DNA of 64,000 nt from Caldithrix abyssi DSM 13497. GTDB taxonomy: Bacteria > Calditrichota > Calditrichia > Calditrichales > Calditrichaceae. The stretch covers positions 496,001 through 560,000 of the forward strand of contig NZ_CP018099.1 of assembly GCF_001886815.1 (NCBI RefSeq), given 5' to 3'. A program made the translations under genes and the position numbers. The notes beneath the pieces are model-generated. The model worked only from the letters and a program-made list of their open reading frames with translations, was not told the DNA's origin and searched no databases. This document shows, one piece after another, positions 10,974 through 54,191 of the stretch (positions within the stretch are counted from its first letter, which is position 1; every line of letters begins with the position of its first letter).

Positions 10974-12430
10974 GAGGAGAAATCTATTCTTTGCCATGTT
11001 TTGAGAAGATTTCTCCTCGTCCGTTGGACGGACTCGTCGAAATGACAGGGGAGGCGCCTACCGGCAATCCGACGAGCACCACGCATCTGTCATTTGGACG
11101 ACCGCTTCCCACTCTGTCATTTGGACGATCGCTTCCCACTCTGTAATTTCAACGATCGTCTCCCACTCTGTCATTTGGACGATCGCCCCCCCCACTCTGT
11201 CATTTCGACGAGCGCAGCGAGGAGAAATCTATTCTTTGCCATGTTTTGATAAGATTTCTCCTCGTCCGTTGGACGGACTCGTCGAAATGACAGGGGAGGC
11301 GCCTACCGGCAATCCGACGAGCGCCCCGCATCTGTCATTTGGACGACCGCTTCCCACTCTGTCATTTGGACGATCGCCCCCCCCCACTCTGTCATTTCGA
11401 CGAGCGTAGCGAGGAGAAATCTATTCTTTGCCATGTTTTGATAAGATTTCTCCTCGTCCGTTGGACGGACTCGTCGAAATGACAGGAGAGACGCTTACTG
11501 GCAATCCGAGGAGCGCTTCCCACTCTGTCATTTCAACGAGCGCCCTGCATCTGTCATTTCAACGATCGCCTCTCACTCTGTCATTTCGACGAGCGCAGCG
11601 AGGAGAAATCTTTTCTTTTCCGTGTTTTGATAAGATTTCTCCTCGTCCGTTGGACGGACTCGTCAAAATGACAGGAGAGACGCCTGCCGGCAATCCGACG
11701 AGCGCCTCCCGCCCTGTCATTTCAACGAACGCCCCGCATCTGTCATTTTGACGATCGCCCCCCCACTCTGTCATTTCGACGAGCGCAGCGAGGAGAAATC
11801 TATTCTTTCCCGTGTTTTGAGAAGATTTCTCCTCGTCCGTTGGACGGACTCGTCGAAAAGACAGGAGAGACGCCTACTGGCAATCTGAGGAGCGCCTCCC
11901 GCATCTGTCATTTCAACGAGCGCCCCCCACTCTGTCATTTCGACGAGCGCAGCGAGGAGAAATCTATTCTTTTCCGTGTTTTGATAAGATTTCTCCTCGT
12001 CCGTTGGACGGACTCGTCGAAATGACAGGTGAGACGCCTACCGGCAATCCGACGAGCGCTTCCCACTCTGTCATTTCAACGAGCGCCCCCCACTCTGTCA
12101 TTTGGACGAGCGCAGCGAGGAGAAATCTATTCTTTGCCATGTTTTGATAAGATTTCTCCTCGTTCGTTGGACGGACTCGTCGAAATGACAGGAGAGACGC
12201 CTACTGGCAATCTGTGGAGCTCTTCCCACTCTGTCATTTCAACAATCGTCTCCCACTCTGTCATTTGGACGATCGCCCCCCACTCTGTCATTTCGACGAG
12301 CGCAGCGAGGAGAAATCTATTCTTTTCCGTGTTTTGATAAGATTTCTCCTCGTCCGTTGGACGGACTCGTCGAAATGACAGGTGAGACGCCTACCGGCAA
12401 TCCGACGAGCGCAGCGAGGAGAAATCTTTT
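10974..12430. repeat. Tandem array of eight long hairpin repeats
   Basis: Eight copies of a 97 bp unit at about 10974-11049 (left end truncated), 11197-11293, 11389-11485, 11578-11674, 11768-11864, 11932-12028, 12095-12191 and 12285-12381, plus a ninth left arm at 12403-12430. Start-to-start spacing is 163-192 bases. Each unit is a long inverted repeat: CTGTCATTTCGACGAG and GAGGAGAAATCT in the left arm pair with their complements in the right arm, giving 16 plus 12 bp of stem. The right arm carries its own small hairpin, CGTCCGTTGGACG. The loop is ATTCTTT(T/G)CC(A/G)TGTTTTGA(T/G)A. Linkers contain ACGCCTACCGGCAATCC and degenerate half-arms. The short reading frames across it look accidental. 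Confidence 0.9.
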
Positions 12431-49980: not shown

Positions 49981-50161
49981 ATTGCTTTTCCTTCATCCCT
50001 GAGTTTTGTTACTCACTTATTTACCTTTTCGGCATAATTTTTTTTTAATTGAATATTTTCATTCTAAAACGACGCAATTCTGCTCACTTCTTTAAAAGTT
50101 GAAACTATTCATAAATTTTCGCATAATACAATTGTCAGGATACCAAAGACAGGTAAAAGCC

Positions 50162-51187
50162 ATGGAAAACGCAATGAACGCCAGAGAAGCCCGATGGTGG
50201 GAAGCACAAGAAAACCATCGAGTTTTATGTACTTTGTGCCCGAGATATTGCATTATTCCTGAAGGCAAGGTTGGATTTTGTTTTGTGCGCAAAAATATCG
50301 ACGGCAGGCTTTACACAACGGCTTATGGGAGACCCACTGGCTTTGCTGTGGATCCGATCGAAAAGAAGCCGCTAAATCATTTTTATCCGGGCACAAACAT
50401 TTTAAGTTTTGGAACGGCAGGGTGTAATCTGGGCTGTAAGTTCTGTCAGAACTGGACAATGAGCAAAGCCCGCCTGGACGAAATGAAAGCGCTTAATGTA
50501 TCTCCGGAAGAGGTTGTGCGGCTGGCGCAAAAGTACGGCTGCCCGTCAATTGCTTTTACCTACAACGATCCGGTGATTTTTGGCGAATATGTGATGGACA
50601 TTTCAAAACTGGCTCATCAGGTTGGCATTAAGACGGTGATGGTAACTAACGGTTATATTGACAAAAAAGCAAGGGAAGAGGTGTTTCGGGATATTGACGG
50701 AGCCAATGTGGATTTAAAGGCGTTTAGCGAACAATTTTATCATAACCTGACCAATGCCCATTTGCAGCCTGTTTTAGACACCCTGGAATGGTTGAAAAAA
50801 GAGACCGGGGTGTGGATCGAAATTACTACGTTGTTGATACCCGGAGAAAATGATTCCATGGAAGAAATTGCCAGAATGTGCGAATGGATACTCAATACTC
50901 TGGGAGATGAAGTGCCCTTACATTTTACAGCTTTTCATCCAGATTTTAAAATGCTCGATCACCCTCCCACTCCTTATTCAACATTGCAAAAAGCAAGAGA
51001 GACGGCCCTTAAGACGGGAATTAAATATTGTTACACGGGCAATGTGCACGATCCTGAAGGTCAAACTACCTATTGCCCATCCTGCGGGCGCCAGTTGATA
51101 GAACGTAACTGGTATCGTGTGAAAATCACAGGACTGAAAAACGGACGTTGTGAACATTGTGCTGAAATCATTGCCGGCCGCTGGTAA
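50162..51187 (+). CDS. amrS: AmmeMemoRadiSam-system radical SAM enzyme
   Basis: 341 residues from ATG 50162; the upstream frame lacks a ribosome binding site. The N-terminus has a zinc-type CTLCPRYCIIPEGKVGFCFV, and the radical SAM cluster is GTAGCNLGCKFCQNW (CxxxCxxC). A second CPSCG...CEHC cluster ends the protein. This form matches AmrS of the AmmeMemoRadiSam system, a homologue of pyruvate-formate-lyase activators. The partner proteins (MEMO1-like, AMMECR1-like) are not in this window. Function of the system is not known. Confidence 0.85.
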   Translation: MENAMNAREARWWEAQENHRVLCTLCPRYCIIPEGKVGFCFVRKNIDGRLYTTAYGRPTGFAVDPIEKKPLNHFYPGTNILSFGTAGCNLGCKFCQNWTMSKARLDEMKALNVSPEEVVRLAQKYGCPSIAFTYNDPVIFGEYVMDISKLAHQVGIKTVMVTNGYIDKKAREEVFRDIDGANVDLKAFSEQFYHNLTNAHLQPVLDTLEWLKKETGVWIEITTLLIPGENDSMEEIARMCEWILNTLGDEVPLHFTAFHPDFKMLDHPPTPYSTLQKARETALKTGIKYCYTGNVHDPEGQTTYCPSCGRQLIERNWYRVKITGLKNGRCEHCAEIIAGRW

Positions 51188-51214
51188 AAAATTTAATTTT
51201 TTGCGAATTTAATA

Positions 51215-51243
51215 TTGACAGAACTAAAAAGATTATTTATATT
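51215..51243 (+). promoter_or_regulatory. Strong promoter of the tRNA-Asn array
   Basis: TTGACA (51215-51220), 17 bases, TATATT (51238-51243), close to the consensus. Transcription should start near 51250, so the whole repeat array and the tRNA would lie on one transcript that ends at the terminator at 51750. Confidence 0.8.
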
Positions 51244-51253
51244 TGACACCTCA

Positions 51254-51338
51254 TTTGAGCATGGGACGCGGTAAAAGCCGAAAAATTGGATGCTCAAAAC
51301 GGCAATGGCTTGTAAGCTCGCCAGTCGTTTTGGCATGG
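51254..51338 (+). other. Structured leader of the tRNA-Asn transcript
   Basis: Two hairpins can form: TTGAGCAT against ATGCTCAA (perfect 8 bp, about 51254-51293) and AAAACG against CGTTTT (about 51295-51331) with further internal pairing. The first tRNA-like repeat unit lacks its 5' part here, and the leader sequence stands in its place. Confidence 0.5.
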
Positions 51339-51672
51339 GCAGAGCGGGTGGCTGTTATCCCGCCTTGGCGGGATGTAGGTTCGAGTCTCTGTTAAAAAAA
51401 CAAGAAAATCCGGCGTAGCTCAATTGGCAGAGCGGGTGGCTGTTATCCCGCCGTGGCGGGATGTAGGTTCGAGGCTCTGTTAAAAAAACAAGAAAATCCG
51501 GCGTAGCTCAATTGGCAGAGCGGGTGGCTGTTATCCCGCCGTGGCGGGATGTAGGTTCGAGGCTCTGTTAAAAAAACAAGAAAATCCGGCGTAGCTCAAT
51601 TGGCAGAGCGGGTGGCTGTTATCCCGCCGTGGCGGGATGTAGGTTCGAGGCTCTGTTAAAAAAACAAGAAAA
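51321..51672 (+). repeat. Four tandem tRNA-Asn-like defective repeats
   Basis: Units of exactly 88 bases at 51321 (5' part divergent), 51409, 51497 and 51585, directly followed in the same register by the intact gene at 51673. Each unit matches tRNA-Asn through acceptor 5' strand, D arm, anticodon stem 5' strand and anticodon GTT, then has the palindrome TCCCGCCGTGGCGGGAT (TCCCGCCTTGGCGGGAT in the first) in place of the 3' stem and variable loop, resumes with GTAGGTTCGAG, and loses the 3' T-stem and acceptor strands to TTAAAAAAACAAGAAAA. They cannot fold as mature tRNAs. Confidence 0.9.
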
Positions 51673-51745
51673 TCCGGCGTAGCTCAATTGGCAGAGCGGG
51701 TGGCTGTTAACCACTAGGTTGTAGGTTCGAGTCCTACCGCCGGAG
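51673..51745 (+). tRNA. tRNA-Asn (GTT)
   Basis: 73 bases. Acceptor TCCGGCG pairs with CGCCGGA; D arm GCTC/GAGC; anticodon stem GGTGG/CCACT with loop CTGTTAA, anticodon GTT; T arm GTAGG/CCTAC with TTCGAGT. G is the discriminator, and CCA is not encoded. It is the only intact tRNA gene in the window. Confidence 0.97.
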
Positions 51746-51749
51746 CAAG

Positions 51750-51788
51750 AAGCCTTCAGGGAAGAATAATTCTTGAAGGCTTTTTTTT
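51750..51788 (+). terminator. Rho-independent terminator after tRNA-Asn
   Basis: AAGCCTTCA (51750-51758) pairs with TGAAGGCTT (51774-51782) and is followed by T residues to 51788. It lies four bases after the tRNA. Confidence 0.9.
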
Positions 51789-51793
51789 ATTTG

Positions 51794-52073
51794 ATGAAAG
51801 ACTATTATTTATACATCCTTTATTCTTCTCGACTTGACCGCTATTACGTTGGAATCTCGCACGATCCCGAGGAGCGGTTGAAGTACCACAACAGCTTTCC
51901 CAGAGGCTGGACGGTTCGCGGCCGCCCGTGGCAACTGGTTTTTACAAAGAAATTCGCGGATCGTCCGACGGCAGAAAAGTGAGAACGATTTATTTAATAA
52001 GAAACGCACTCTTTTTTTGAAATTTAATAAAAAAAATAGTACACTTAGCAAGTGCATCCGCGGGGGAAAAGGC
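51794..52073 (+). pseudogene. Broken GIY-YIG endonuclease gene
   Basis: The frame from ATG 51794 gives 62 residues with the GIY-YIG core (YYLYILYSSRLDRYYVGISH, PEERLKYHN, GWTVRGRPWQLVFTKKF) and a stop at 51980-51982. Small single-domain GIY-YIG proteins normally continue with about 25 residues of EA---E--IK--K-R--I. Related sequence (KKRTLF, then KKNSTLSKCIRGGKG) appears in other frames up to 52073, which points to frameshifts. There is no ribosome binding site, and the start lies just past the tRNA terminator. Confidence 0.6.
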
Positions 52074-52670
52074 ATGAGAATAATTTTTATTGGAATCGCG
52101 TTAATCTCTTTTTTTAAAGTCTCCGTCCGGGCTCAGCTAATGGAGCCGGTTAAGATCAAAACGCCCCACGGAATTTTGAAAATCGAAGCGAATCTTAAAT
52201 GGCACACTTTAAGAGTTCGCGCTGAAACATCGATTCCCGGTGAAAACGGCGCCATCGCTGAAGCCGATCTGCTAAAATTAATTGAAAAATTGGTGACGGA
52301 GAAGGATTCCCTGCTTAATGGGCAAACGTTTTCCTCGCTGTATTTAGGGCGGCTGGTTGAATATCCCTGGCTGGTAACATTTTTAATGCGCCGCGCGGCC
52401 GAATCTCCGGAATGGCAGGCAGAACGCGGGAGGCTGAAAATAGACAGCGTAAATATTAATGATTGGGTAGCGACAATTCTTTTCACTCACCCGATCCGGG
52501 ATAAAATAGACCGACTGTTTCGCAAAAGCGGCTATCGCGTGACGGGAATTTCCGCGGAAAAGGTGCTGGTTAATGACGCTTCAAAAGTCGAGCGGAAGTC
52601 GGTTAAATATCTAACAGGAAAATTACCATTTGACGCACAAACCTGGTTAATTCTAAAAAAAATTAAGTAG
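52074..52670 (+). CDS. Secreted protein of unknown function
   Basis: 198 residues from ATG 52074 (GGGGAAAAGGC upstream; the longer frame belongs to the broken GIY-YIG gene). Signal peptide MRIIFIGIALISFFKVSVRA, then a mixed alpha/beta body with a charged helix (EADLLKLIEKLVTEKDSLLN) and a central TFSSLYLGRLVEYPWLVTFL segment. No family recognised. It stands alone before the AtuA-type pair. Confidence 0.65.
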   Translation: MRIIFIGIALISFFKVSVRAQLMEPVKIKTPHGILKIEANLKWHTLRVRAETSIPGENGAIAEADLLKLIEKLVTEKDSLLNGQTFSSLYLGRLVEYPWLVTFLMRRAAESPEWQAERGRLKIDSVNINDWVATILFTHPIRDKIDRLFRKSGYRVTGISAEKVLVNDASKVERKSVKYLTGKLPFDAQTWLILKKIK

Positions 52671-52826
52671 AGTGGGATTTTAAAGATAGGTTAAAATTGC
52701 CAGGTGATGAGATGAATGTGGGATGGATTAATAAGAACTTTAACATTTTAATTCTGTGTTCCTGAACAATCTTAAATAAGATTTAAACAGGTAGATTTAA
52801 CAACTTAAATAAAGCAGGAGCCTTAC

Positions 52827-54191
52827 ATGAAAGAATTCATTCGTATTGCCAGTGGACAGGGATACTGGGGGGATCGTTTTGATGCGCCGATTGATCAGGT
52901 GCGCGAGGGGCCGATTGATTACCTGGTCATGGATTATCTGGCCGAGGTAACCATGTCCATTATGCAAAAACAGAAATCACGCGATCCAAATTTGGGTTAT
53001 GCCAAAGATTTTATTCGCCTGATGGAGGTCTTGCTTCCGGAGCTGGTAGAGAAAAACGTCAAATTAATAACCAATGCCGGCGGAGTTAATCCTGTGGCCT
53101 GCATGTTAGCCGTGCGCGAAATTGCGGAGCGCAAAGGATTGGAAGGCGTGCGCATTGCGGCGGTTTACGGCGATGACATTTTGAATCACATTGACGGCCT
53201 GGTGGCCTCCGGTAATGAACTGCGTAATATGGAGACCGGAGAGCCGATTGAGAAGATACGCGATCGAATCAGCAGCGCTAATGTGTATTTTGGCGCCAGG
53301 CCGGTTGTGGAAGCGCTGGAACAGGGGGCGCAGGTGATTATCACCGGCCGCGTTACCGATACGGGACTAACTCTGGCGCCAATGATTCACGAATTTGGCT
53401 GGCAATGGGATGAATGGGACAAACTGGCAGCCGGAATTGTCGGCGGACATATTAATGAGTGTGGCGCGCAGGCCAGCGGCGGTAACTTTCTGGCCGGCTG
53501 GAAAGAAGTGCCCAACATGGAACGCATCGGCTTTCCTATTGTCGAGGCCTTTCCGGACGGAACTTTAATCATCACCAAACACGAATCACTGGGCGGCCTG
53601 GTGGATGAACGGACGGTTAAAGAACAGTTGGTGTACGAACTGGGCGATCCCCGAGATTACATCACGCCAGACGTGGTAGCTGATTTTACTTCTATTCAGT
53701 TGCGGCAGATAGGTGAAAATCGCGTAAAAGTCTTTGGCATTAAAGGTCAACCCTTCACCGAATTTTACAAGGTTTCCATCTCCTATTTTGACGGCTACAC
53801 ATGCATCGGGCAGTTAACCTACGCCTGGCCCGAGGCTCTGGAAAAAGCCAAAAAAGCGGACGAAATTATTCGTAAAAGAATTGAATATCTTGGCCTGAAC
53901 TTTGAAGAGATACATACGGAATTCTTAGGATACAACGCCTGTCACGGCACAACGGCACATCAGATTGCGGATCCGAATGAAGTCGTGTTTTTGATCGGCG
54001 TTCGCGGCCAGAATAAAAAACACATGGAAACCTTTGCCAATGAAATTGTGCCTCTGGTTTTGACCGGTCCGCCGACGGTCACCGGTTTTGGCGGCGGGCG
54101 GCCACGTGTGCGTGAAGTGATCGCCTACTGGCCGGCTTTGCTTAAAAAAGAAGAGGTGACGCCTAAAGTGCTGACCATTGAGGTGGTGTAA
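52827..54191 (+). CDS. AtuA-family protein (DUF1446)
   Basis: 454 residues; AGGAG six bases before the ATG. DUF1446 hallmarks: IRIASGQGYWGDRFDAPIDQ, LITNAGGVNPVACMLAVREI, VIITGRVTDTGLTLAPMIHE, GGHINECGAQASGGNF and a glycine-rich C-terminus FGGGRPRVREVI. AtuA is needed for catabolism of acyclic terpenes such as citronellol in Pseudomonas, but the biochemical role of the family is not settled. The C-terminal ferredoxin-like part of long AtuA proteins is encoded separately just downstream. Confidence 0.9.
   Translation: MKEFIRIASGQGYWGDRFDAPIDQVREGPIDYLVMDYLAEVTMSIMQKQKSRDPNLGYAKDFIRLMEVLLPELVEKNVKLITNAGGVNPVACMLAVREIAERKGLEGVRIAAVYGDDILNHIDGLVASGNELRNMETGEPIEKIRDRISSANVYFGARPVVEALEQGAQVIITGRVTDTGLTLAPMIHEFGWQWDEWDKLAAGIVGGHINECGAQASGGNFLAGWKEVPNMERIGFPIVEAFPDGTLIITKHESLGGLVDERTVKEQLVYELGDPRDYITPDVVADFTSIQLRQIGENRVKVFGIKGQPFTEFYKVSISYFDGYTCIGQLTYAWPEALEKAKKADEIIRKRIEYLGLNFEEIHTEFLGYNACHGTTAHQIADPNEVVFLIGVRGQNKKHMETFANEIVPLVLTGPPTVTGFGGGRPRVREVIAYWPALLKKEEVTPKVLTIEVV

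Follow-up and report, generated by a model that had tools for sequence, protein, structure and literature searches.

Palindrome-marked copies of a tRNA-Asn gene in Caldithrix abyssi as the probable remains of a homing-like element with a GIY-YIG nuclease

A tandem array of broken tRNA-Asn copies in Caldithrix abyssi DSM 13497 is probably what remains of a small, homing-like selfish element that specialises in the tRNA-Asn gene and whose cleavage and mobility we infer. The array lies within the stretch of 64,000 nucleotides analysed here (the window). Our reading is built from sequence: the anatomy of the array, the replacement of a tRNA segment by a palindrome, the linkage of a small nuclease gene to tRNA genes and the strand bias of this linkage, nuclease clades that follow the tRNA isotype, a replaced segment that is largely specific for the isotype, and the presence or absence of the array among relatives. 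The broken copies appear to be part of a family of small nuclease genes that is widespread and, it seems, undescribed, and in which every lineage is tied to one kind of tRNA gene. Statements about whole genomes rest on searches and on selected stretches of these genomes.

Three identical 88-bp units and one 5'-truncated unit, all bearing a palindrome, precede the intact tRNA-Asn gene on the same (+) strand. Tandem Repeats Finder places the array at 51338-51709, with a period of 88, 4.2 copies and 99% matches. Units 2 to 4 (51409-51496, 51497-51584 and 51585-51672) are 100% identical to each other, and unit 1 (51335-51408) is 96% identical to these and has lost the acceptor strand together with the greater part of the D arm. 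A complete unit consists of the tRNA-Asn 5' half through the anticodon, followed by ATCCCGCCGTGGCGGGAT, which stands where the intact gene has AACCACTAGGTT, and after this by GTAGGTTCGAG and a spacer. At the junction, GGCTGTT/AACCACTAGGTT/GTAGG of the intact gene has become GGCTGTT/ATCCCGCCNNGGCGGGAT/GTAGG in the units, so that the 12 nt after the anticodon are exchanged for an 18-nt palindrome. The palindromes occupy 51357-51374 (unit 1, loop TT), 51445-51462, 51533-51550 and 51621-51638, and all four are exact; a search allowing two mismatches gave five matches in the window against a chance expectation of 0.19. The intact tRNA-Asn(GTT) gene (51673-51746, +) was found by ARAGORN and scores 70.7 bits with the Rfam tRNA model (RF00005), which matches none of the palindrome-bearing units. 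A promoter-like sequence, TTGACA-17-TATATT, with 11 of 12 consensus matches lies 5' of the whole array (51215-51243, +), and a terminator-like hairpin with a T run follows the tRNA gene (51747-51785, +). The units contain the tRNA 5' half and 23-bp spacers with no gene within them, a point looked at with integrase-type tRNA islands in mind.

Repeat finding, ARAGORN, Rfam and the palindrome positions bear out the first-pass annotation in its description of four palindrome-bearing defective copies before an intact tRNA-Asn, and in the identity of the three complete units over 51409-51672. It had rightly put the palindrome directly after the anticodon; its further idea of an insertion fails, since the 12-nt segment is replaced and not interrupted. 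The array it described is real, with a start near 51335 rather than 51321, and consists of three complete units and a truncated one. A tRNA intron was considered because of the junction after the anticodon and was set aside; the units in the window are without the 3' half.

What the first-pass annotation overlooked is a truncated GIY-YIG nuclease gene directly downstream (51794-51982, +; PF01541, 46.5 bits), which starts 47 bp after tRNA-Asn and is assigned by its position in the nuclease trees to the tRNA-Asn clade. It comprises 62 codons, compared with 83-93 amino acids in relatives, stops at codon 63, ahead of the conserved Glu and the C-terminal helix, and has more in-frame stops behind, as its reading frames show; the family match over it holds one TGA and two TAA. 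Among 15 aligned relatives, Tyr, Tyr-x-Gly, Arg and His are invariant and Glu is near-invariant. The GIY-YIG domain known from homing endonuclease elements (PF01541) was found in all three nuclease proteins tested, and NCBIfam gave no family above its cut-off for the nuclease. Since the gene is truncated in the window, the locus is probably a relic and the local element at tRNA-Asn probably dead.

The gene upstream of the array, encoding a radical-SAM protein, is common to the window and four related genomes (G003, G004, G006 and G010). Of these, G003 shares 5' units with the window, and none are present in G004, G006 and G010; this means either that the Caldithrix lineage acquired the array, between promoter and tRNA, or that it disappeared elsewhere. 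No nuclease match was obtained in G006, nor in G004 on the contig with the shared upstream gene. As in homing elements, the nuclease is linked to its presumed target gene, and both occupied and empty alleles exist.

The same anatomy occurs far beyond this locus. The tandem amplification of a palindrome-bearing copy, as proposed at first, holds as far as it goes, but the possibility then raised that it is local to this genome does not: arrays of this kind were found beside tRNA-Asn in other Calditrichota genomes, as had been suggested as a check, and also in other FCB phyla, tied to a GIY-YIG nuclease. A scan of 84,980 species genomes turned up 52 stretches with the Asn-type junction, almost all of them belonging to Chlorobi, Ignavibacteria, Bacteroidetes and Calditrichota, and in many of these a nuclease ORF separates the intact tRNA from a palindrome-marked 3' half. 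A congener carries one 5' unit beside tRNA-Asn, members of other families either carry 3' units or have, between the tRNA and the palindrome-marked 3' half, an intact GIY-YIG gene, and several Chlorobiaceae loci show 5' units, intact tRNA and 3' units in succession. At one locus (L091), 494-bp nuclease-bearing units alternate with 68-bp nuclease-less units in a single array, which points to a route by which short units like those of the window can arise. The same junction pattern was not found in viral contigs, and phage records held no relative of the Asn-clade nuclease at E 1e-5.

Several further observations were made at such loci. At three of them (L060, L073, L075) the palindromes of the 5' units (core ACAAGT) are the reverse complement of those of the 3' units (core ACTTGT), like the ends of an inverted element. 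Contigs of many relatives (L019, L020, L021, L027, L032, L035) end about 150 bp or less from tRNA-Asn, as if arrays had broken the short-read assemblies. Within the Caldithrix genome, the tRNA-Ser(GCT) gene has palindrome-marked copies on both sides, in which the palindrome family of the Asn array replaces AGGCGCTCGCCT (L038, genome 4,124,024-4,124,513); no GIY-YIG gene was found near this array. The tRNA-Ser(CGA) gene of the same genome (L051, about 3,698,435) is preceded by eight units of about 115 bp with a hairpin other than the Asn type, and an intact GIY-YIG ORF starts at its 3' end, followed by a further hairpin-marked fragment.

In a protein-first survey, an alignment of 15 small GIY-YIG domains was searched in 40 Calditrichota genomes and in 25 others; the latter had been picked for carrying an Asn or Met junction, a bias that does not touch the Calditrichota figure. 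Of the 86 distinct nuclease copies of Calditrichota, 45 have a tRNA within 700 bp. In the joint set of 40 and 25 genomes, 129 nucleases leave enough room for a judgement, and 72 of these are preceded by a tRNA of the same strand at no more than 500 bp; chance linkage, by a rough estimate from about 45 tRNAs in 4 Mb, is well under 1%. Nearby tRNAs number 115, every one of them on the strand of the nuclease and none on the opposite strand. A partial copy of the linked tRNA is present at 67 of 71 tRNA-nuclease loci, and 101 of the 141 gaps in the partial copies hold a stem of six or more pairs, compared with 3.2% in shuffled sequences.

The nuclease clades follow the tRNA isotype in both trees computed. 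In a tree of 101 domains, the isotype of the 60 tRNA-linked nucleases changes nine times, the minimum for ten isotypes, and the host label changes 30 times. A larger tree shows 15 isotype changes for 13 isotypes (minimum 12; mean of 52.8 when shuffled). Both trees rest on 85 columns, and their deep forks are weak. The segment replaced in the copies is also largely isotype-specific, in Calditrichota as well as in other phyla. Asn and Met copies lose 10-12 nt after the anticodon, those of Glu, Val, Gln, Lys and Pro(CGG) lose the 17-nt anticodon arm, and Asp and Cys copies lose 8 nt of the T arm and 18 nt, respectively. For Ser, Leu, Thr and Pro(GGG) the replaced segment is more varied, and double hairpins are often found.

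The palindromes themselves have to be considered apart from the nuclease, as the main rival to a homing-like element takes them for independent mobile or template-switch repeats, similar to REP or other small dispersed repeats, that landed in dead tRNA copies, with neutral tandem duplication and with the GIY-YIG gene as a hitchhiker or as an enzyme serving palindromes in general. This reading is supported by the motif ATCCCGN{2,10}CGGGAT, which is enriched in each of the 40 Calditrichota genomes (2-53 sites, where the reversed control gives about 0), and by the density of palindromes within 400 bp of GIY-YIG genes, which is 2.8 per kb where a tRNA is present and still 2.4 per kb where it is not, compared with 0.34 per kb at a distance of 900-1500 bp. 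The occurrence of one palindrome family on both the tRNA-Asn and the tRNA-Ser(GCT) copies of the Caldithrix genome points the same way. However, mobile palindromes alone leave unexplained why nuclease clades follow the isotype, why every nearby tRNA lies on the strand of the nuclease and why the replaced segment is constant for an isotype across phyla, and we regard this explanation as unlikely, though deserving serious consideration.

In most copies counted in the 52 stretches, the palindrome is preceded by CTGTT (67) or CTCAT (9), which is the position directly after the anticodon of tRNA-Asn or tRNA-Met. At the inner positions that the search pattern did not fix, the bases are complementary in 30 and 28 of the 34 distinct versions, and the second palindrome pair occurs as C-G, T-A or A-T; pairing, therefore, has been kept rather than sequence. 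The palindrome is unlikely to be the sequence-specific site of the nuclease itself: its sequence depends on the host genome, as the family shared by Asn and Ser(GCT) copies illustrates, whereas the nuclease lineages follow the tRNA. The 18-nt palindrome described in the genome paper of C. abyssi (PMC5317091) differs from that of the array.

Palindromes also surround nuclease genes that have no tRNA beside them. A tRNA-free sister clade of GIY-YIG genes (including L050, L052, L053 and L054) lies among dispersed palindromic repeats (GTCATTTCGA.., CATTCCCGCGAAAGCGGGAATCC.. and others), with palindromes about seven times denser within 400 bp than at 900-1500 bp. A large tandem array of TCTGTCATTTCGACGAGCGC.. 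at 11086-12402 of the window is of the repeat type that flanks two near-identical GIY-YIG genes (L052 and L053, genome about 598-600 kb), where palindromes replace or split the arms of the repeat. At sites apart from any tRNA or nuclease gene, a dispersed repeat (AGCACAAAAATTTTCAAATCCCGCCCGGGCGGGAT.GATCTT) has the palindrome of the Asn array at its centre (L011 and L039-L042; genome 284,896, 1,558,877, 4,357,962 and 4,378,618).

Several known systems resemble parts of this picture. The RtT or tyrT repeats of E. coli (RF00391) are arranged in tandem next to a tRNA gene and contain a portion of this tRNA, namely its 3' end, and lie downstream; in the arrays of the window it is the tRNA 5' half, upstream and with a palindrome. 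RtT RNA was rejected as a candidate, as Rfam matched only the tRNA over 50000-53000, up to E = 1. Fungal mitochondria, for example in Allomyces, contain endonuclease elements that replace the end of a gene, and double-hairpin elements; the analogy lies in an endonuclease gene at a gene with a displaced duplicate end and in hairpins in RNA genes, but these elements belong to eukaryotic organelles and, to our knowledge, have no link to one tRNA isotype. In the RAYT/REP system (TnpA-REP; PMC2817692, PMC3733652), a small nuclease gene likewise lies amid short palindromes, which recur at scattered places of the genome, but the enzyme is a Y1 HUH transposase rather than a GIY-YIG protein, and here the palindromes are inside tRNA gene copies. 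For the array, identity with REP/RAYT was rejected because of the enzyme, and the tetranucleotide tag was rejected as well: the GTAG that follows the palindrome in Asn copies belongs to the tRNA T stem and is absent at Glu, Val and Asp copies. The tRNA-free clade described above suggests a GIY-YIG counterpart of RAYT/REP.

The closest parallel is SegB of T-even phages, a free-standing GIY-YIG homing endonuclease whose gene adjoins a tRNA gene, which frequently has tRNA neighbours, and which has been shown by experiment to cause a tRNA locus of phage T6 to be amplified in tandem (PMC13096335). SegB differs in acting in phage genomes and on full tRNA copies, and palindrome-marked partial copies are not among the features described in the passages of that account considered here; the family of the array consists of isotype-dedicated lineages in bacterial chromosomes. 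The findings reported here agree with a nuclease directed against its own tRNA gene and with duplication in the course of repair, as with SegB in phage T6.

By this analogy, the element at tRNA-Asn would work like a free-standing homing endonuclease element. Its sole protein, a GIY-YIG nuclease with one domain and from a lineage associated with tRNA-Asn, would break the tRNA gene at an isotype-specific site, and recombinational repair would then duplicate a tRNA segment beside the nuclease gene. One tRNA copy would stay intact because the cell needs it, and the spare partial copies, with a palindrome in place of the putative target segment, would be neither cut nor read as tRNA. Unequal recombination could afterwards expand short, nuclease-less units. 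Some findings count against such a homing-like model. With regard to resistance of the own allele, the spare copies are altered at the isotype-typical segment and the intact gene is unaltered; as the intact tRNA keeps the supposed target, self-cutting needs an explanation. The Asn-clade nucleases are grouped roughly by phylum, which would also fit old vertical descent with losses. The tRNA-Ser(GCT) array is without a nuclease gene nearby, and the replaced segment is variable for Ser, Leu, Thr and Pro(GGG). Palindromes, moreover, flank the tRNA-free nuclease clade too and so are not only a matter of tRNA targets.

Other explanations concern the units as RNA. They might be functional, as decoys, as sources of tRNA-derived RNAs or as regulators of tRNA-Asn supply. 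With a good promoter-like site before them and the tRNA behind, the units are plausibly transcribed along with the tRNA, as initially proposed; each folds as one nested hairpin (z = -2.6; the isolated hairpin from the unit 4 palindrome has a predicted energy of -11 kcal/mol), and palindrome pairing is kept while the sequence varies. Yet copy number, side (5' or 3'), spacer and even presence differ between close relatives, and 3' units sit behind a terminator. The early ideas of decoys and tRNA-derived RNAs gained no support, and we consider a function as RNA improbable. In the window (51585-51672) and at L073 and L068, the spacers, different in sequence, are complementary to the tRNA 5' half of their own unit, and the whole unit is foldable as one long hairpin through this complementarity.

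A related and very improbable proposal is that palindrome and spacer are under selection because broken upstream copies fold on themselves and spare the folding of the tRNA in a shared transcript. Pairing of spacers with the tRNA 5' half at these three loci is in line with it, and in the predicted promoter-to-terminator transcript the acceptor-stem pairing was 0.935 for the native array compared with 0.17-0.54 for altered palindromes or spacers. The value for the window dropped to 0.42 with slightly different transcript ends, however, and over 24 tRNA genes native sequences gave 0.44 and shuffled palindromes 0.40; the strong first result thus failed in a wider, slightly different test, and the proposal was not adopted. 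An assembly artefact in copy number, which the three identical units and the contigs of relatives ending close to tRNA-Asn might suggest, is hardly credible for a genome in a single contig of 4,978,541 bp and with the same structures in many independent assemblies.

In the literature searched, most subscription journals being outside its range, we found no published description of palindrome-marked tRNA copies or of isotype-dedicated nuclease clades. Across the FCB group, tiny GIY-YIG nucleases may well comprise several distinct lineages, each specialised on a single tRNA isotype, that persist selfishly on essential tRNA genes by means of palindrome-replaced spare copies and would form a distinct class of tRNA-gene parasites with hairpin scars. 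Such a class would raise the testable question of how the cell tolerates a nuclease aimed at an essential gene. It would offer a bacterial counterpart to the SegB-driven tRNA amplification in phages, as well as ready-made isotype-specific nucleases for asking how so small a domain recognises one tRNA gene, and it would unite the tRNA fragments, palindromes and small GIY-YIG ORFs of many Bacteroidota, Chlorobi and Calditrichota as one system.
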